This document shows, piece after piece, positions 20,466-44,971 of a DNA stretch of 64,000 bases. The stretch spans positions 2,542,001 to 2,606,000 of the forward strand of contig NC_013922.1 in assembly GCF_000025625.1 (NCBI RefSeq), written 5' to 3'. The notes below the pieces were generated by a model. That model made no database searches and was not told where the DNA came from. It saw only the letters and a list, made by a program, of their open reading frames with translations. Each line of letters begins with the position of its first letter. Positions within the stretch are counted from its first letter, which is position 1. The position numbers were made by a program, and so were the translations under genes. The stretch comes from Natrialba magadii ATCC 43099 (GTDB lineage: Archaea; Halobacteriota; Halobacteria; Halobacteriales; Natrialbaceae).

Positions 20466-20633
20466 TCACCTTGCTCGTCGCTCGGTAGTGAATATCTGAA
20501 ACGTATCGGGAGGTAGGTCTGAACCATGTCCACTCCGGTTCCGACGCTCGCTCGTGGCCTCTACCAACCACATGCGATGGATGACGCTCACGAATTTGTT
20601 CGCGCCAAAACATAGCGGGAGGTAGATTTGAAC
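20466..20633. repeat. Degenerate and exact copies of the initiator tRNA 3' end (possible attachment-site scars)
   Basis: The 21 bp at 20753-20773, which on the minus strand form the T-arm-to-acceptor end of the tRNA, recur exactly at 20613-20633 (TAGCGGGAGGTAGATTTGAAC) and with four differences at 20504-20524. The copy at 20466-20524 also matches the 40 bp beyond the tRNA end (20715-20752). Copies at 20504 and 20613 share a further flank ending in GCTCGTGGCCT. Such arrays arise when integrases insert elements into tRNA 3' ends; no integrase gene remains here. Confidence 0.7.
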
Positions 20634-20752
20634 CACGTCCACTTCGCTCCCTGCGGTCGCTCGTGGCCTACCTCAAATCTACTCGTTGTATTCACAGGGA
20701 TTCAGACTCACTCCTCACACTGTTCGTCGTTCGTTGTTGAATCCCTGAAAAG

Positions 20753-20827
20753 TAGCGGGAGGTAGATTTGAACTACCGGTCTGCGGGTTATGAGCCCGCC
20801 GGAATCTCCTGGCTATCCCATCCCGCT
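20753..20827 (-). tRNA. Initiator tRNA-Met (CAT)
   Basis: Read on the minus strand, acceptor arms AGCGGGA and TCCCGCT pair over 7 bp. The anticodon loop is CTCATAA closed by GCGGG/CCCGC, giving anticodon CAT at 20790-20792. The three consecutive G-C pairs next to the loop and the A1-U72-type end identify the initiator rather than the elongator. The D-arm contains GATAGCCAGGAGATTCC and the T-arm GGTAGTTCAAATCTACC. CCA is not encoded. A TATA-like CTTAACTA lies about 20-27 nt upstream (20846-20853). Confidence 0.95.
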
Positions 20828-38247: not shown

Positions 38248-38925
38248 ATGGCGAACCGATCGCGGCCACGCCCTGGCGCATCGGCCTCCCGCTCGACCGG
38301 ATCCGGTTCCAGCGCCTCCGAATCCCCTGCTGCCAACGACCAGCCAAGCCCCATCTACGAGCTCCTCGTTATCTTCGGACTCGTCTTCCTTATCCAGGTG
38401 ATCACCGACATTGTCGGTATCATGGCCGGCCTGTTCGTGCTCACTCTCCCACTCGCCGAGAACCCCTGGACCATCGTGACCAGTGTCTACGCCCACGGCG
38501 GTCTCTGGCACCTCCTCTCGAACAGTCTCGCGCTCGTTCTCTTCGGCTGGCCAGTCGCCCGCGCAACGTCGCGTGTGCGGTTTCACACGTTCGTCCTCGT
38601 CACCGGCTCGATTGCCGGCATTTCGCAGGTTCTCATCAGCGGCTTCGCGGCCGCAGCACCCATTGTCAGTGGCGACCCTGTCGGCGTTCTCGGCGCGAGT
38701 GGCGCCATCTTCGCACTCCTTGGCTACCTCATTACCGGCAACCGACTCTCCGCCGGCTTCGCGTCGATTATTGACGTCCCACAGTGGGTAACGATCGCCG
38801 TCTTCGTCGGCCTCGCGACCGTCGTCACTCTCATGACCGCTGCACCTCGTGTCGCCCTGATCGCTCACTTCACCGGCTTTCTGCTCGGCTTACTCGCCGG
38901 GCGCGCCCGCCTGCTCGAGATTTGA
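38248..38925 (+). CDS. Rhomboid-family intramembrane serine protease
   Basis: 225 residues from 'MANRSRPRPG'; a TATA-like word lies about 26 nt before this ATG. After a Ser-rich head come six hydrophobic helices. The catalytic serine is in 'GASGAIFALLGY' (Ser151) and the histidine in 'IAHFTGFLLG' (His207); Asn92 in 'WHLLSNSLAL' belongs to the oxyanion hole. It should cleave membrane proteins within the bilayer. Substrates are unknown. The next feature is tRNA-Ala. Confidence 0.93.
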   Translation: MANRSRPRPGASASRSTGSGSSASESPAANDQPSPIYELLVIFGLVFLIQVITDIVGIMAGLFVLTLPLAENPWTIVTSVYAHGGLWHLLSNSLALVLFGWPVARATSRVRFHTFVLVTGSIAGISQVLISGFAAAAPIVSGDPVGVLGASGAIFALLGYLITGNRLSAGFASIIDVPQWVTIAVFVGLATVVTLMTAAPRVALIAHFTGFLLGLLAGRARLLEI

Positions 38926-39088
38926 GGGGACTCGAGTACGCGCCGCTCTGTGCTGTAGCATGGAACTCGAGTGGTGAGTGCACTGCGAGAGGGGAGGAAA
39001 AGGGAGCGGGGAGGAAGGGAGATGTCTGCAGACGAGAGGCCTTTCAAAACACAAGCTACAAATACAAACCCGGGTTAGAAACGTTCGA

Positions 39089-39160
39089 GGGCTCGTAGAT
39101 CAGTGGTAGATCGCTTCCTTCGCAAGGAAGAGGCCTCGGGTTCAAATCCCGACGAGTCCA
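39089..39160 (+). tRNA. tRNA-Ala (CGC)
   Basis: 72 nt. Acceptor arms GGGCTCG and CGAGTCC pair (one G-U). The anticodon stem CTTCC/GGAAG holds loop TTCGCAA, giving anticodon CGC (39121-39123), which reads GCG alanine codons. The T-arm is CTCGGGTTCAAATCCCGA and the discriminator is A. CCA is not encoded. A TATA-like CTACAAATA lies about 26-33 nt upstream. The 38926-39088 gap before it is purine-rich and holds no gene. Confidence 0.95.
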
Positions 39161-39220
39161 CTATTCTGCGGCGCGAACAAATTCGTGAGCGCCGCGAATC
39201 GTCGTCGATGGCGGATTTGA

Positions 39221-39291
39221 AGCCATGGAAGTCGCAGCGTGAGCGAAGCGAACGACCGTCTTCCTTCGGGTTCAAATCCACAGGAGTTCCC
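39221..39291 (+). repeat. tRNA-Ala 3'-end scar forming the start of the next gene
   Basis: TCGGGTTCAAATCC, 14 bp from the tRNA-Ala T-arm (39136-39149), recurs at 39266-39279. It is preceded by a repeat-like GCGTGAGCGAAGCGAACGACC and followed directly by the coding sequence of the small membrane protein. This looks like a degraded integration site left in place. Confidence 0.6.
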
Positions 39292-39592
39292 CAAACGATA
39301 CGAGTACTCGATCTACACGCTGCCGATGCCGGTGCTCAAGGTCGTCGCAGTCGGGAACGTCGTTGTCTCCGTCGTGTTCATGCTGCTCGTCGCCGCCAGC
39401 GCACCCTCGGCGCTCGCGTTCGTCATCGTCTGGATCGTTCTTACTTCCGCCGGCGACGTCTACAGAATTCGCTCCTCGGCGCGACGCGATGTCGATCTTC
39501 GTGCACGGATGTCGCTGTTGCACAAACACGAATCGATTGGCGGAAGCGATGGCGATGCGAACACCGACGGCGAAACGAACACTGACGGCTGA
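39239..39592 (+). CDS. Small membrane protein with tRNA-scar-derived N-terminus
   Basis: 117 residues from GTG at 39239; the frame is closed by TGA at 39218-39220. Residues 1-15 ('MSEANDRLPSGSNPQ') are encoded by the tRNA-like scar. Residues about 31-70 make two hydrophobic helices ('VLKVVAVGNVVVSVVFMLL', 'ALAFVIVWIVLTSAGDVY'), followed by a basic patch and an acidic 'SDGDANTDGETNTDG' tail. Function unknown. An ATG at 39326 would start just before the first helix, but it would skip 'YEYSIYTLP', which looks like genuine protein. Confidence 0.7.
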   Translation: MSEANDRLPSGSNPQEFPKRYEYSIYTLPMPVLKVVAVGNVVVSVVFMLLVAASAPSALAFVIVWIVLTSAGDVYRIRSSARRDVDLRARMSLLHKHESIGGSDGDANTDGETNTDG

Positions 39593-39724
39593 GCGGACTG
39601 CCGTCGCTGTTTCATAGTTTCTCTTTGGCAGTTCGCGGTTTTCAAACCGCGGACAGCAACTCGTCCGAGCGAGGGTGACTCGAGTACCAGGCGACAAAAG
39701 AGCGCGACCCAACGGTGTGGGTCG

Positions 39725-40156
39725 CTATCGGCACTCCGCCGTTCCGATGGTCGGGCCGGCGTGTGGTGTTCGGCCGCGGGAGAGGTAGGATGCGAGGTCG
39801 GTCGTCGTTACGATACCGATGACGCCTTCGTCCTCGTCGACCACCGGGAGGTGGTGACAGCCGTGCTCGAGCATGGTGGCTGCGGCGTCGCGGACGCTGT
39901 CCTGTGCGGCGGCGGTGACGACGTTCTCGGTCATGTAGCGCTCGACCGTCGTTTCCGCTTTAGGCTGGCTCTGGGCGACGATATCGACAAAATCGGTCGT
40001 TGTCAGAATGCCCGCGAGATGGTTGTCTGAGTCGACAACGATCACGGATCCAATATCGTTCTCGCGCATGACCTGTCCGGCGGTTTCGACCAACGTGTCT
40101 TGCCGTACCGTGTGGAGTGACGTGGACATGATGCGGCCGACGAAGATATCTTCCAT
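39725..40156 (-). CDS. Two-CBS-domain protein
   Basis: 143 residues made of a CBS pair only: 'MSTSLHTVRQDTLVETAGQV...NDIGSVIVVD...LAGILTTTDF' and 'MTENVVTAAAQDSVRDAAAT...HHLPVVDEDEGVIGIVTTTD' (here shortened). CBS pairs bind adenosine nucleotides and sense energy state. No catalytic or DNA-binding domain is fused. The promoter has CTATAGG repeats on both sides of its TATA box. Confidence 0.92.
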   Translation of the reverse strand: MEDIFVGRIMSTSLHTVRQDTLVETAGQVMRENDIGSVIVVDSDNHLAGILTTTDFVDIVAQSQPKAETTVERYMTENVVTAAAQDSVRDAAATMLEHGCHHLPVVDEDEGVIGIVTTTDLASYLSRGRTPHAGPTIGTAECR

Positions 40157-40170
40157 AGTACTGCCTTGTC

Positions 40171-40198
40171 CTATAGGAACATAATACTTTGCTATAGG
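40171..40198 (-). promoter_or_regulatory. TATA box bracketed by CTATAGG repeats, CBS-protein promoter
   Basis: On the minus strand TATTATG (about 40180-40186) lies roughly 25-28 nt before the ATG at 40156. CTATAGG occurs on the plus strand at 40171-40177 and 40192-40198, 21 nt apart, which is two helical turns, one on each side of the TATA box. This would suit a repressor that blocks TBP. Confidence 0.45.
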
Positions 40199-40319
40199 TT
40201 ATCTACTAGCACACCACACCGTCATGTATCAATTATCGCTCACCTTGGTCCTACAATTCACGCGATAACCTATGATCCAGTGGTGAACCTTTACGCTCCC
40301 GTGAGTCACACCCATCGGT

Positions 40320-41963
40320 ATGCGAATTAATGAAGCCGTCATCGACCGACTGGTTGCGAACGGGGTCGACACCCTGTTTGGTATTCCCGGGAAACAGACC
40401 CTGCCGCTGAACGAAGCGATCAGCGAGCGCACGGACATCGACTTCATCATGGCTCGCCACGAGACTGCCGTCTCCCACCAGGCGTGGGGCTACGCTGAAA
40501 CGAGCGGTGGTCTTGCTGCGACCGTCGTCATCCCCGGCCCCGGTGACATGAACGCCATGAACGGGCTGAAGAACGCGCTCAACGACTGCACGCCGCTCGT
40601 CCACATGGCCGTCGAGACCGAACCCGAGATCCGTGGCGGTGACGGTATCCACGAAACACCACCAGATACCTACGACAACGTCGTCAAGGAGAACGTCACC
40701 GTCGAAACGCCCGAGAGTACCATCGCCGAACTCCAGCGCGCGATCGACATCGCGCTCACCGCGCCGATGGGGCCCGTTCGCGTCGGCATCCCCAAGAATT
40801 TCCTCCCGATGGACGTTCCGCTCGCCGAACCCGGCGAAACCGAAACCCGAACCGTTGGCTCCCCTGCCGACGAGCGGATCGCCGAGGCTGCAGACCTCCT
40901 TGCCGAATCTGAACGGCCGATCATCATCGCCGGCGGTGGCGTCCGCGCGTCCGGCGCGAGCGACGAACTCACATCCCTCGCCGAAACACTCGACGCCCCG
41001 GTATTCCCGACCTACAAGGGCAAGGCCGTCCTCCCGGACGATCACGACCTCTTCGCGGGCGTGCTCTGTGGCGGCACCGGCAGCGCGGTCAAACACCAGA
41101 TCGCCGCCGCAGACGCGGCTCTCGGCGTTGGAACCGACCTCGACGCCGTCACGATGAAACACTGGGAGATCGACGTGCCGGACGATCTCGTCCACGTCAC
41201 CCTCGATGCCGACGACATCGGCGTCGGCTACGACCCCGCGGTCGGCATCGTCGCAGACGCCGGCCGAACGATGGGTGCACTCGAGTCCGCCCTCGACACT
41301 CGTTCGATCGCCTCGACGAACGGTCACGAGCGTGCGCGAGAGACGCGCCAGGCCGTCGAGGATCGCCTCGCAGAACTGGTCGCGGTTGAGGAACCGCCGC
41401 TGCCGTCTCCGAGTGCGCTGTCGGCGATTCGCGATGCAGTGCCCCGAGAGGCTGTCGTTGCCGCCGACGCGGGCGGGTTCCGCCTCTGGTCGCTCGTGAT
41501 GTTCGAGGCATACGAACCTCGTGACTACGTCAACCCGGGCTCGTGGGCCACGATGGGGTCCGGCGTGCCATCGGCTATCGGCGCGAAGGCGGCGAATCCG
41601 GACCAGGACGTCGTTGCACTCACGGGCGACGGCGGACTGATGATGTGTGTTCACGAACTACACACGCTGGCCGACGAGGACATCGATGTGACCGTGATCG
41701 TGCTCAACAACAGCGATTACGCGATCATCAGCGAGGAGGCCGAACGCAGCTACCGGATGGACGCAAGCGAGTACGGCTGGCAGGACGTCCCGCTCGACTT
41801 CGATGCCATCGCGTCCGGGATGGGACTCGAGACGATGCGTGCTGGCACGCCGGATGAGATTCGCGAGACGGTTGCCGCGGCAGTCGAGAGCGACGGGCCA
41901 ACGCTGGTCGAGATTTCGACGGATCCACACGAACCGCAGGCAAGCGTCTGGATGTCGGACTGA
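40320..41963 (+). CDS. Thiamine-diphosphate-dependent enzyme, acetolactate-synthase-like
   Basis: 547 residues with the three domains of the family. The catalytic glutamate is Glu48 in 'ARHETAVSHQAWG', and the ThDP/Mg motif starts 'TGDGGLMM' (Asp437) and ends 'IVLNNSDYAI'. Relatives include acetolactate synthase, benzoylformate decarboxylase, sulfoacetaldehyde acetyltransferase and oxalyl-CoA decarboxylase. No ilvN-type small subunit is adjacent, which speaks against a biosynthetic acetolactate synthase. Exact reaction open. Confidence 0.87.
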   Translation: MRINEAVIDRLVANGVDTLFGIPGKQTLPLNEAISERTDIDFIMARHETAVSHQAWGYAETSGGLAATVVIPGPGDMNAMNGLKNALNDCTPLVHMAVETEPEIRGGDGIHETPPDTYDNVVKENVTVETPESTIAELQRAIDIALTAPMGPVRVGIPKNFLPMDVPLAEPGETETRTVGSPADERIAEAADLLAESERPIIIAGGGVRASGASDELTSLAETLDAPVFPTYKGKAVLPDDHDLFAGVLCGGTGSAVKHQIAAADAALGVGTDLDAVTMKHWEIDVPDDLVHVTLDADDIGVGYDPAVGIVADAGRTMGALESALDTRSIASTNGHERARETRQAVEDRLAELVAVEEPPLPSPSALSAIRDAVPREAVVAADAGGFRLWSLVMFEAYEPRDYVNPGSWATMGSGVPSAIGAKAANPDQDVVALTGDGGLMMCVHELHTLADEDIDVTVIVLNNSDYAIISEEAERSYRMDASEYGWQDVPLDFDAIASGMGLETMRAGTPDEIRETVAAAVESDGPTLVEISTDPHEPQASVWMSD

Positions 41964-42010
41964 ACGCCGGGCGTCTTGCTGGCCGGTTAGTTTCTCTGGC
42001 TTGCTAACCG

Positions 42011-42017
42011 TTATACC
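42011..42017 (+). promoter_or_regulatory. TATA box deciding the MFS transporter start
   Basis: TTATACC lies 27-33 nt before the ATG at 42044 and only 12-18 nt before the GTG at 42029, so a leaderless mRNA favours the ATG. Confidence 0.45.
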
Positions 42018-42043
42018 ACGGGCAGACCGTGGTGCTTGTAGAG

Positions 42044-43366
42044 ATGAGTACTGCGCAGACGGATCGAATGAGCGACAACGACAGGTCGATCACGGGGTTC
42101 GTGATGATCTCCCACGCGGTCGTCCACACGTACGAGCTCTCGATCCCGATTCTGATGGTAATCTGGCTCACGGAGTTCAGCGTGAGCACGGCGATTCTCG
42201 GCAGTGCGGTCGCGGTCGGCTACGGCCTCTTCGGTGTCGGCGCACTGCCGGCCGGCATTCTGGTCGACCGTTTTGGGTCGCGCGAACTCGTACTGGTCTG
42301 TCTGGCCGGGATGGGCGGTTCGTTCCTCCTGCTGAGTGCCGCACAGGGAATCGTGTCGATCACGCTGGCACTCTGTGTCTGGGGTATCGCAGCGAGTATC
42401 TACCACCCGGCAGGGCTGTCGTTGATCTCGACCGGCGTCGAACAGCGCGGCACCGGCTTCGCCTATCACGGCATGGCCGGCAACTTCGGCATCGCCTTCG
42501 GGCCGTTACTGACGGCGATTCTGCTGTTGTTCTTCGACTGGCGGCTCGTCACCGCAATTCTCGTCGTGCCGGCTGGTCTGGCGATTCTCTACGCCCTGAC
42601 GGCGAGTTTCGACGAGAAGGCTGCCGTCGAGACGCAGCCTGATGGCGGTCGAGAACCAGCAGACGAGGATACCGACACCGGCGGAACGACCGACGGACAG
42701 GTCGACAACCAGATGTCGCTCTCGCGATTCCTGTCGGACAGTCGCGCGCTGTTCACCATCGGCTTCACGGTTGCGATGGTCGTCGTCATGATGAACGGGC
42801 TGTTCTACCGCGGGACGCTGACCTTCCTGCCTGACGTGCTGAGCGATTTCATGCCGGACGTCGTCGAACAACTACAGCTGTTCGACCCTGACAGCCCGAT
42901 GGCCGAGGAGTTCGACCCGGCCTCCTACCTCTACGCCGGGCTTCTGATGGTCGGCATGGCCGGCCAGTACGTCGGCGGGAAGCTCACCGACCGAATCCGG
43001 ACAGAAACCGGCCTCACGATAATCTTCGCTTCGCTCGCCGTCGTTGCGGTCCTGTTCGTCCCCGTCGCCGAAGCGGGCCTCGTTCCGCTGCTTCTCATCG
43101 GCTCGGTGCTCGGCTTCCTGCTGTTCTCGCTCCAGCCGATGTATCAGGCGACCATCGCGGAGTACAGCCCGCCCGGTGAACGCGGGCTCTCTTACGGCTA
43201 CACCTACCTCGGCGTCTTCGGCGTCGGTGCCGCCGGCGCGGCGATTGCCGGCTTCCTCCTCTCAATCGGTTCCATCTGGCAAACGTTCGCGGCACTCGCC
43301 GTCTTCCCCGCCACAGGCGCAGTCCTCGCGATCGTGCTTCGCCGAACCGGCGATCGACGCGCCTGA
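42044..43366 (+). CDS. Major facilitator superfamily transporter
   Basis: 440 residues from 'MSTAQTDRMSD'; a GTG five codons upstream is less likely because the TATA box is too close. Twelve hydrophobic helices in two sixes, with the MFS loop in 'PAGILVDRFGSRELVLV' after helix 2 and a long acidic central loop ('DEDTDTGGTTDGQVDNQ'). It probably uses a proton or sodium gradient. Its position between a ThDP enzyme and an aminotransferase suggests movement of an amino or organic acid, but the sequence does not show the substrate. Confidence 0.9.
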   Translation: MSTAQTDRMSDNDRSITGFVMISHAVVHTYELSIPILMVIWLTEFSVSTAILGSAVAVGYGLFGVGALPAGILVDRFGSRELVLVCLAGMGGSFLLLSAAQGIVSITLALCVWGIAASIYHPAGLSLISTGVEQRGTGFAYHGMAGNFGIAFGPLLTAILLLFFDWRLVTAILVVPAGLAILYALTASFDEKAAVETQPDGGREPADEDTDTGGTTDGQVDNQMSLSRFLSDSRALFTIGFTVAMVVVMMNGLFYRGTLTFLPDVLSDFMPDVVEQLQLFDPDSPMAEEFDPASYLYAGLLMVGMAGQYVGGKLTDRIRTETGLTIIFASLAVVAVLFVPVAEAGLVPLLLIGSVLGFLLFSLQPMYQATIAEYSPPGERGLSYGYTYLGVFGVGAAGAAIAGFLLSIGSIWQTFAALAVFPATGAVLAIVLRRTGDRRA

Positions 43367-43639
43367 TACGTTCCACTCTCACTCCGGTTGCACTTTTGCT
43401 TCCGCGTCTTCGTTCTCGTCGGTTACAATGATACTGTCAACAGCTCATTTCCGCTTCAGCTTGCCACCATTTCGCAAGTCGACACCGCCAGATGTACAGT
43501 ATCCAGCACCGATCCGCACTCGAGTACGACCCAATACGATTGTGTACTGTTCAACTCCTGCCGCCGAATTCGTCCGTCGAATCAACACAGCGTTTGTTAC
43601 AGGACAACAATTAACTACCTGTGTCCCGATGGACAGTAT

Positions 43640-44971
43640 ATGCTAGAAGAACCAACCGGTGACCTCAACCAAATTCCGACGACGATTCCACACTGGTACG
43701 ACCCAGACGGAAGCCCGCTGACACTCGAGTCAGGCGACGGTGCGACGGTGTTTGACGACGACGGCGAGGAGTACCTCGATTTCGCCTCGCAGCTGTACTG
43801 CGTCAACGCTGGGCACGGTAACCAGCAGATCATCGACGCGATGACCGAGCAGCTAGAACAGATCCAGTACGTTTCGTCCTCGAAACACTCCCCCGTACGG
43901 TCCGAACTCGGCGAGCGACTGGTCGACATTGCTCCTGGCGACCTCTCGCACGTCATGTTCTCGGTCACTGGCAGCGAGGCGAACGAACTCGCCGTCCAGC
44001 TCGCGCGTAAACACACTGGCGGCTCGAAGATTCTGACCCGCTGGCGCTCCTATCACGGCTCGACCTACGGTGCCGGCAGCCTGACCGGCGACCCCGAAAC
44101 ACGTGCACTCGTCGAGAGTCACGCCGCGACGACCGGGTCGACGAAGTTCCTCCCCCCGATGTCACATCCATCGCCGTTCAACGCCGACAGTCCCGAGGAA
44201 CTCGCCGAACTGGCCGCCGACCATCTCGAGTTCGTAATTCGCAACGAAGACCCCGACTCCATCGCTGGGATCATGATGGAACCAGTCGCCGGCTCGAGCG
44301 GCGGCTACCCAGCACCGCCAGGCTACTTCGAGCGCGTCCGCGAACTCTGTGACAAGTACGACATTCTGCTGATCGCAGACGAGGTCATCACCGGCTTCGG
44401 CCGCTGTGGCGAGTGGTTCGGAATCGAAACCGAGGACGTCGAACCGGACATGATCACGTTCGCGAAAGGCGTTACGAGTTCCTACGCCCCGCTCGCTGGC
44501 GTGCTCGCCCGGCCCGAACATGTTTCGGGCGTCCAGGAGGACGGCTTCGACCTCGGGCAGACGTTCGGTGGTCACCCCGTCGGCTGTGCGGCCGGCCTCG
44601 CCGCGATCGATGTCTACGAGGACGGTCAGATCGACAACGTCCGCGAGAACGCCTCACTCTTCGAGGACGGACTGGCCGAACTCGAGTCCCAGTACGACGT
44701 GGTCGCGGACGCGAGAGGTCGTGGCTACCTCTGGGGCGTTGCCTTCGAAGATCCAGCAACGGGCGAACCATTCTACGACCCGCGTGTAGACGGTGACGAC
44801 GTGGAGAATCCGGTTTCGGACGTCGTCTCGGGGCTCGAAGACCGCGGTGTGCTCGTCGGCACCGGCCGCCCGGCGACGCAGATCCTGCTTTCGCCACCGC
44901 TGTGTACGACAGCTGAAGAGATCGAGACGGTCCTCGACGCACTGGACGCGGCGATCACGGACGCGTTCTGA
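43640..44971 (+). CDS. Class III PLP-dependent aminotransferase
   Basis: 443 residues from 'MLEEPTGDLNQ'; a TATA-like AATTAAC lies about 25 nt before this ATG, and the frame's upstream extension to 43388 is not protein-like. PLP is held by Lys276 in 'TFAKGVTSSYAPL', with 'GSEANELAVQLAR' for phosphate and 'LIADEVITGFGRCG' for the Asp contact. The class includes GABA, beta-alanine, taurine-pyruvate and ornithine aminotransferases. Substrate unassigned. Confidence 0.92.
   Translation: MLEEPTGDLNQIPTTIPHWYDPDGSPLTLESGDGATVFDDDGEEYLDFASQLYCVNAGHGNQQIIDAMTEQLEQIQYVSSSKHSPVRSELGERLVDIAPGDLSHVMFSVTGSEANELAVQLARKHTGGSKILTRWRSYHGSTYGAGSLTGDPETRALVESHAATTGSTKFLPPMSHPSPFNADSPEELAELAADHLEFVIRNEDPDSIAGIMMEPVAGSSGGYPAPPGYFERVRELCDKYDILLIADEVITGFGRCGEWFGIETEDVEPDMITFAKGVTSSYAPLAGVLARPEHVSGVQEDGFDLGQTFGGHPVGCAAGLAAIDVYEDGQIDNVRENASLFEDGLAELESQYDVVADARGRGYLWGVAFEDPATGEPFYDPRVDGDDVENPVSDVVSGLEDRGVLVGTGRPATQILLSPPLCTTAEEIETVLDALDAAITDAF

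Follow-up and report, generated by a model that had tools for sequence, protein, structure and literature searches.

By sequence comparison, the 117-aa ORF that follows tRNA-Ala (anticodon CGC) in the analysed stretch of Natrialba magadii (genome paper PMC3403918) represents the 3′ fifth of an amino-acid permease gene joined to a tRNA-tail element, and its odd start is most likely the joint of a deletion that brought the last fifth of the permease up to this short hairpin element. The best explanation of the locus as a whole is probably a permease end, a family of hairpin elements and a deletion of approximately 7.2 kb, the last based on synteny. The stretch, referred to here as the window, is 64,000 nucleotides in length, and the genome searched as its own comprises 4,443,643 bases on four contigs (including C1 of 3,751,858 and C2 of 378,348 bases). 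Features of the window are listed in Table 1.

Table 1. Features of the window discussed in the text, with strand and the evidence for each.
Feature	Position	Strand	Evidence
tRNA-Ala, anticodon CGC	39089..39160	+	ARAGORN (end printed 39161) and Rfam RF00005, 70.5 bits
tRNA-tail element, member of the two-hairpin family	39161..39279	+	Model R1, 128.2 bits (one of the 14 training elements of R1)
Hairpin 1 (7-bp stem, tandem G.A pairs, 2 bp, 6-nt loop)	39168..39195	+	Fold and pair counts
Inverted T-arm copy GGATTTGAA, 5′ arm of hairpin 2	39213..39221	+	Inverted repeats I4 and I6; own-tRNA tests
Hairpin 2 interior, apical GAGCGAAGCGA, contains GTG 39239-39241	39222..39265	+	Fold and pair counts
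Direct T-arm copy, cut off by the joint	39266..39279	+	Repeat search
Fusion ORF, 117 aa, putative GTG start, reads VSEANDRLPSGSNPQEFPKRYEYSIYTLP...	39239..39592	+	ORF translation
Putative deletion joint; CC 39278-39279 common to both sides	39278..39280	+	BLAST start at 39278; native G004 sequence
3′ remnant of amino-acid permease gene, 103 codons and stop	39281..39592	+	Homologues in G004 and G005; DNA homology
tRNA-Met, second tRNA of the window, tail elements behind it	20753..20827	-	ARAGORN, Rfam
Tail element, first unit behind tRNA-Met; weak	20624..20755	-	R1 19.2 bits, E 0.059; tandem tRNA 3′-end copy by eye
Tail element, second unit behind tRNA-Met	20515..20615	-	R1 30.3 bits

Genes for EF-1 alpha, ribosomal protein S10 and a rhomboid-like protein lie upstream of the tRNA, and those for a CBS-domain protein and a TPP-dependent enzyme lie downstream of the fusion ORF (all named by eye from translations). 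The original prediction described a T-arm sequence that recurs 130 nt downstream and is read in frame behind a GTG. This holds: the 14-nt TCGGGTTCAAATCC occurs exactly twice on the forward strand of the 64-kb window (at 39136 and 39266) and not on its reverse strand, and the repeat can be extended to 22 nt at 86% identity. The tRNA together with the sequence behind it, 191 nt in all, recurs at tRNA-Ala(GGC) of the same genome with 95% identity (94% over 180 nt in a second comparison), and the 119-nt elements of the two loci differ at two positions. This recurrence, along with the regular presence of a second T-arm copy in the element family, makes the repeat more than a chance match. At tRNA-Ala(GGC) the element finishes with a full copy of the tRNA 3′ end, and the copy in the window stops at TTCAAATCC.

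The gene to which the ORF belongs was identified from homologues, which a protein search returned from three of seven genomes of the genus (own genome included). The matches in G004 and G005 begin at ORF residue 13 (92% and 88% identity) and lie inside frames of 524 and 546 codons. The intact permeases are 511 aa in G004 and 541 aa in G005 (the latter counted from the first start codon), and both have MSEGEFKLIS near the start. The G004 protein matches Pfam AA_permease_2 (PF13520, E 8.8e-35, residues 13-440 of 506). No Pfam match was obtained in the 117-aa ORF, which carries the last 103 codons rather than the full length of PF13520. DNA homology to G004 extends from 39278 to 44290 at 89%. At the joint, comparison of the native sequence CTGCCACAGGAG (G004) with ATCCACAGGAG in the window gives two bases (CC) that are common to both sides.

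These alignments locate the boundary between foreign and native sequence more precisely than was proposed from the window. It had been suggested that the first 15 residues derive from an integration scar and that the native part starts near YEYSIYTLP. Residues 1-13 are indeed encoded by the tRNA-associated repeat, but codon 14 (CCA) straddles the joint and the native part starts at Gln15. The proposed comparison with homologues gave the predicted result, as G004 and G005 align from Gln15 on and read VGGVALWNLP and VGGVALWKLP before it. The idea that the neighbouring gene has lost its 5′ end is also borne out: the ORF is a permease end, and its first residues are foreign to that gene. The claim that the scar supplies the start codon stands in part. 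The GTG, a putative start, falls within the tRNA-associated repeat, but is not itself tRNA-derived, as it sits in the apical stem of hairpin 2. An identical GTG occurs at tRNA-Ala(GGC) (L002), whose element has no permease joined to it.

The replacement of the gene's 5′ end was originally attributed to insertion at the tRNA. Relatives point instead to a deletion of about 7.2 kb in which approximately 400 permease codons were lost. The order in G005 is rhomboid, tRNA-Ala, a provirus of about 13 kb with an integrase, element, pilins, contig gap, peptidase, membrane protein and permease (the gap, of about 460 nt, is inferred, and pilin, peptidase and some other genes were named by eye). The element behind the provirus is 97.7% identical to that of the window over 133 nt, and a second copy of the left arm of the provirus follows it, before the pilins. 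On this gene order, the stretch from the element to permease codon ~403 measures 1957 + ~460 + 4836 nt, or about 7.2 kb. The recent deletion would have run from inside the distal T-arm copy of the element (after TTCAAATCC) to permease codon ~403, and the open frame from the GTG of the element would be a by-product. None of the relatives has the complete pre-deletion order on one contig (that of G005 includes the inferred gap). In G003 the peptidase region likewise lies behind tRNA-Ala, and all that is left of the permease is an 83-nt match ahead of an inverted block (L078 6976-14001), probably the result of a second, independent break near the same tRNA. The order in G004 differs, with the permease located behind tRNA-Pro and a provirus arm; thus, the region has been rearranged more than once. 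We searched the own genome for the missing 5′ part (~400 codons) and found no match near the expected 89%, only pieces at 70-82% that include a paralogue near 502-503 kb. A rearrangement that kept the 5′ part elsewhere was rejected because this part is not found in the genome. In Haloquadratum, repeat-mediated deletions and prophage-linked partial tRNA duplications have been described; the deletions, in the available part of that account, involve repeats of 4-20 bp, and the overlap at the window joint is shorter, at 2 nt (PMC3119063).

Over 85 of the 103 codons of the remnant, comparison with G004 gives a dN/dS of 0.096 and comparison with G005 one of 0.047; the value between G004 and G005 is 0.057. 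Since the remnant behaves like the intact pair, a loss of function is invisible in its substitutions; the ratios suit a young deletion, although function may have been retained. The fusion ORF is probably not a functional gene. That it encodes a new short membrane protein, translated from the GTG of the scar, is very improbable: its 117 codons are open and the dN/dS of its permease part is low (0.05 and 0.10), but a young deletion accounts for those values just as well, most of the Pfam domain of the >500-aa permease is missing, the ORF has no Pfam match of its own, and the GTG is part of a hairpin that is also present in the unfused tRNA-Ala(GGC) copy.

The scar had been interpreted as one integration footprint. 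It proved instead to be one of 37 matches (E <= 1) in the own genome to R1, a covariance model trained on 14 elements that follow tRNAs for Ala, Val, Gly and Phe. Because the same element recurs behind many tRNAs, we rejected the idea that the scar comes from a single provirus footprint. The plan of the family is: the tRNA; hairpin 1; an inverted copy of the T-arm of that same tRNA; hairpin 2; and a direct T-arm copy, mostly with the acceptor 3′ strand, often followed by another unit. In hairpin 1, a stem of about 7 bp is followed by two G.A pairs, two further pairs (AC/GT or GC/GC) and a small loop. The inverted T-arm forms the base of hairpin 2; above it come a middle stem, an internal loop that is conserved, and a tip of the form GARC(NNN)GYGA. 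The 115 distinct elements that we collected are 47 to 154 nt long (median 117). An Rfam 15 scan of 38900-39700, which covers one member of the family, gave no match over the element; the tRNA alone exceeded its gathering score, and the other three matches were below theirs and fell on the tRNA or the permease remnant.

The two-hairpin structure is supported by covariation. In A1, a MAFFT alignment of the 14 elements made without the model (although its first row served to draw the structure), pairing is seen in 91.0% of cells, and 38 double-changed cells were counted compared with 10.5 in shuffled alignments (0 of 500 as high) and 2-13 in slid versions of the structure. In A2, the model-based alignment of the 115 distinct elements, 92.1% of cells pair, with 659 double-changed cells compared with 189 shuffled and 46-94 slid; because this alignment was fitted to the model, its counts are biased toward the structure. 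The tip pattern is present in 22 of 40 elements that were not chosen by it (shuffled mean 0.18; the 40 were found by similarity or by R1 and include R1 training rows), and a GNA triloop occurs in 18 of the 22. The DNA mini-hairpin d(GCGAAGC), which is very stable, has such a C(GNA)G tip. Below the loop of hairpin 1, the A/T or G/C pair is matched in all 34 motif-showing elements among the same 40.

Most elements are tied to a tRNA gene. In the own genome, 35 of the 37 R1 matches lie within 400 nt behind a tRNA on the same strand; of the remaining two, one is a unit that follows a partial tRNA-Gly and one is weak (E 0.37). At least one element follows 27 of the 46 tRNA genes (45 Rfam matches and one intron-bearing tRNA-Trp found by ARAGORN), and 19 have none within 400 nt. 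A search across the phylum returned matches at E <= 1e-5 in 50 of 294 genomes, all of them the own genome or members of its family or order; at least three members of the order (G135, G034 and G256) gave no R1 match. Match counts per genome are lower bounds because 12 candidates were scored per genome. The core pattern of hairpin 2 (GTCGCAGC...GAGCGAAGCGA...CGACCGTC) was found in 49 genome-contig stretches, all titled as haloarchaea, and was not found in viral contigs. Of 51 places with this pattern, 43 follow a tRNA on the same strand, 30 of them at up to 110 nt and the other 13 at up to 600 nt. The eight exceptions comprise two later copies of an array (L117) for which the tRNA-Phe is in a different stretch, one place at a stretch edge (L126), one with a tRNA-Phe-like end (L152), one with a T-arm-like end only (L151), and three Halorubrum places without a tRNA copy (L118, L133 and L154). 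For 104 of the 115 distinct elements a same-strand tRNA was identified within 700 nt, and the tRNAs represent 17 amino acids. In 92 of these 104 the distal copy extends as far as the tRNA 3′ end; the element of the window belongs to the remaining 12.

The arms of an element correspond to its own tRNA. For elements selected by the core pattern, the region 5′ of the core was compared with the reverse complement of tRNA 3′ tails, and in 41 of 41 cases the inverted arm fits the element's own tRNA better than the mean foreign tail (9.5 versus 6.6). None of 5000 permutations did as well, either in the full set or with one element per anticodon (n = 18). A wider version of the test gave 101 of 104, a figure confounded by the model. 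Site fidelity is partial, as the nearest relative in another genome stands behind a tRNA with the same anticodon for 39 of 104 elements (4.3% for random pairs), behind another tRNA for the same amino acid for 10, and at a different amino acid for 55.

Comparison of loci among relatives (by eye for tRNA-His and tRNA-Glu) indicates that modules change while the tRNA-derived frame stays. At tRNA-His, G000 and G003 have hairpins in common with Natrinema (L121, L140); in G004 and G005 both hairpins are different, although the inverted and direct arms that enclose them are identical, and the sequence that follows in G005 is unchanged. At tRNA-Glu, hairpin 1 of G000 is as in G005 and hairpin 2 as in G001 and G006. 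The T-stem of this G000 tRNA is CAGGG/CCCTG, compared with CTGGG/CCCAG in relatives, and the change recurs in the direct copy, an indication that tRNA and copy exchange sequence. At tRNA-Ala(CGC), the G005 element lies between two tRNA-end copies and is followed by CTGCGATTCTG..., and in G004 CTGCGATTCTG is located directly behind the tRNA. Two provirus events are an alternative reading of this difference, because CTGCGATTCTG is the left arm of the provirus and also stands directly behind the tRNA in G005.

Tandem units stand back to back in the arrays, which were read by eye. The window itself includes at least two behind tRNA-Met (20515-20755, reverse strand), the first of which carries GTAGATTTGA, complementary to the T-arm of that tRNA. 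In G022, three tail elements follow tRNA-Phe with a spacing of 272 nt, each along with a hairpin-rich stretch (L083 1382-2043). A second kind of unit was observed behind tRNA-Ala (L061 1574-1665, L038 1693-1800 and L078 7080-7170). Its inverted arm fits the acceptor 3′ strand (GTGGACTCGC...GCGAGTC), not the T-arm, and a CGCAAAC/GTTTGC hairpin lies between; G001 and G006 have sequences that resemble it by eye. Some direct copies contain an extra T-loop base (TTCACAATCC, TTCAGAATCG and TTCAATATCC; L032, which is the G000 tRNA-Phe, L105, L106 and L046), and one tRNA-Phe unit has an insertion in the inverted arm that matches it. The att end of the G005 provirus (L076 near 2090) reads TTCACCATCC.

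Larger insertions occupy some of the same sites. The G005 provirus at tRNA-Ala (L076 1957-15212, ~13 kb) encodes an integrase next to its distal end (PHROG match, E 7.6e-26), and has virus-like genes that match PHROGs, mostly of unknown function. Behind tRNA-Gly of G004 is a stretch of about 15 kb (L082 1476-16592) with an integrase and with tail elements on both sides; it also encodes a 1294-aa restriction-modification-like protein (identified by eye) and includes N in the part adjoining the tRNA.

The mechanism that we favour, tentatively, is integration of non-autonomous elements at tRNA 3′ ends with the assistance of tyrosine integrases that target tRNA genes. We infer mobility from the att-like ends, the presence and absence of elements, the arrays, the sites in common with integrase-bearing elements, and the inverted arm. 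With the inverted arm, a single strand could fold back and restore the T-arm attachment site as a duplex, much as in integron attC sites. Repeated recombination between the tRNA and its copies would keep both arms matched to the host tRNA and would allow hairpin modules to be exchanged. We did not find the element of the window in phages or plasmids. Searches for an autonomous version behind tRNA-Ala in L165, L166 and L168 (up to 19 kb, with at most 3 mismatches in 16 nt) gave no distant tRNA-end copy; the one copy in L166, 68 nt behind the tRNA, is the end of the second element type.

A somewhat unlikely alternative is that the elements are host RNA structures: transcribed together with the tRNA as a 3′ trailer, they would help in termination or 3′ processing, with the T-arm copy as a decoy or second processing site. 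The position of 35 of 37 matches behind a tRNA and on its strand would be expected of such a trailer, as would the strong covariation. Mismatches outside the T-arm are G.T in 63 cases and A.C in 52; in hairpin 1 the counts are 23 and 8 (wobble pairs 3.3%), which leans toward RNA. The middle stem of hairpin 2, by contrast, is almost without wobble pairs (1 of 690 cells compared with 41 of 790 in tRNA stems; 66 of 72 tRNAs), and a role in tRNA maturation does not readily accommodate the 19 of 46 tRNAs without an element within 400 nt, the tandem arrays, or the difference between congeners at tRNA-Ala.

The near absence of wobble pairs in hairpin 2 would also suit arms copied from each other. This is the expectation if template switching at the T-arm hairpin writes inverted and direct copies, with the hairpins grown between them, a mutational origin with which the match of the arms to each element's own tRNA agrees. 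We consider it unlikely, as the hairpin cores are common across tRNAs and genera (49 stretches), which independent copying would not give. Debris is a slightly more doubtful source, with the units as the ends left by deletion of proviruses or plasmids that had used the tRNA as attachment site. Integration is known to leave partial tRNA copies, according to the accessible parts of two haloarchaeal genome studies (PMC3119063, PMC7921747), a provirus lies between tRNA and element in G005, and an integrase-bearing stretch lies between elements behind tRNA-Gly in G004. One covarying two-hairpin plan at tRNAs for 17 amino acids is, however, not expected of random leftovers, and in the G005 stretch R1 matches the element but not the ends of the provirus.

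Known systems resemble the mobile, integrase-assisted element that we favour in some respects. Haloferax gibbonsii LR2-5 has 11 partial tRNAs, several directly beside the full tRNA (PMC7921747), and in this species and Haloquadratum walsbyi (PMC3119063) a tRNA 3′ fragment is repeated downstream, as here. Those copies are called remnants or are linked to integration, and the accessible portions of both papers give them no hairpin element, inverted T-arm, family across tRNAs or covariation. Attachment-site scars of archaeal tyrosine integrases (SNJ2, pNOB8 and HSTV2-like), covered in part of a review that treats tRNA attachment sites (PMC8371274), share the tRNA 3′-end direct repeat and the integration point, and a provirus occurs in the same array in G005. 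In our family the direct repeat bounds the insert in 92 of 104 elements (it is cut by the joint in the window). Unlike such scars, the units are about 120 nt, gene-less and of conserved fold. No mobile element or integrase-bearing remnant lies inside the element of the window, 119 nt being too short for an integrase gene, and the only integrase near this element is in the adjoining G005 provirus.

Integron attC sites carry an R′ core GTTRRRY and an R″ core RYYYAAC at the hairpin base. The base of the element reads GTTCAAA / TTTGAAG (by eye) and does not fit. As in attC sites and gene-less attC clusters, the base of an imperfect palindrome would recreate a recombination site in the folded strand and units form tandem arrays; the base here, by contrast, is the locus-specific tRNA T-arm, and the arrays that we read are without cassette ORFs. 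PATEs, IS605-derived palindromic elements of haloarchaea, are likewise short, gene-less and palindrome-bearing but, as far as the available text describes them, have no target duplication and no tie to tRNAs (PMC3119063), whereas duplication of the tRNA end is usual here (92 of 104). Nor does the family fit MITEs of DDE transposons, which have inverted repeats at their termini and duplicate varied target sites, since the inverted arm lies inside the unit and what is duplicated is, in the same 92 of 104 elements, the tRNA end.

We found no description of the family in the open-access literature, to which the search was confined. It is a speculative possibility that gene-less, hairpin-forming DNA behind the tRNAs of Halobacteria constitutes an undescribed selfish or domesticated class, characterized by direct and inverted T-arm copies of its own tRNA, modules swapped in place, and movement or recombination in the form of folded single strands in which the tRNA attachment site is recreated. 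For annotation, the locus is a caution, as an open frame with a scar-borne start is here the tail of a broken transporter gene. More generally, a structured element that follows 27 of 46 tRNA genes in a single genome, and occurs in 50 genomes belonging to one archaeal order, has no Rfam family at the member scanned. The mobile and host-RNA readings make opposite predictions for simple laboratory tests in haloarchaea. If the elements are host RNAs, they would represent an unknown layer of tRNA 3′ processing; if they are mobile, they would be the att-site counterpart of MITEs and would reveal how tRNA genes accumulate arrays.
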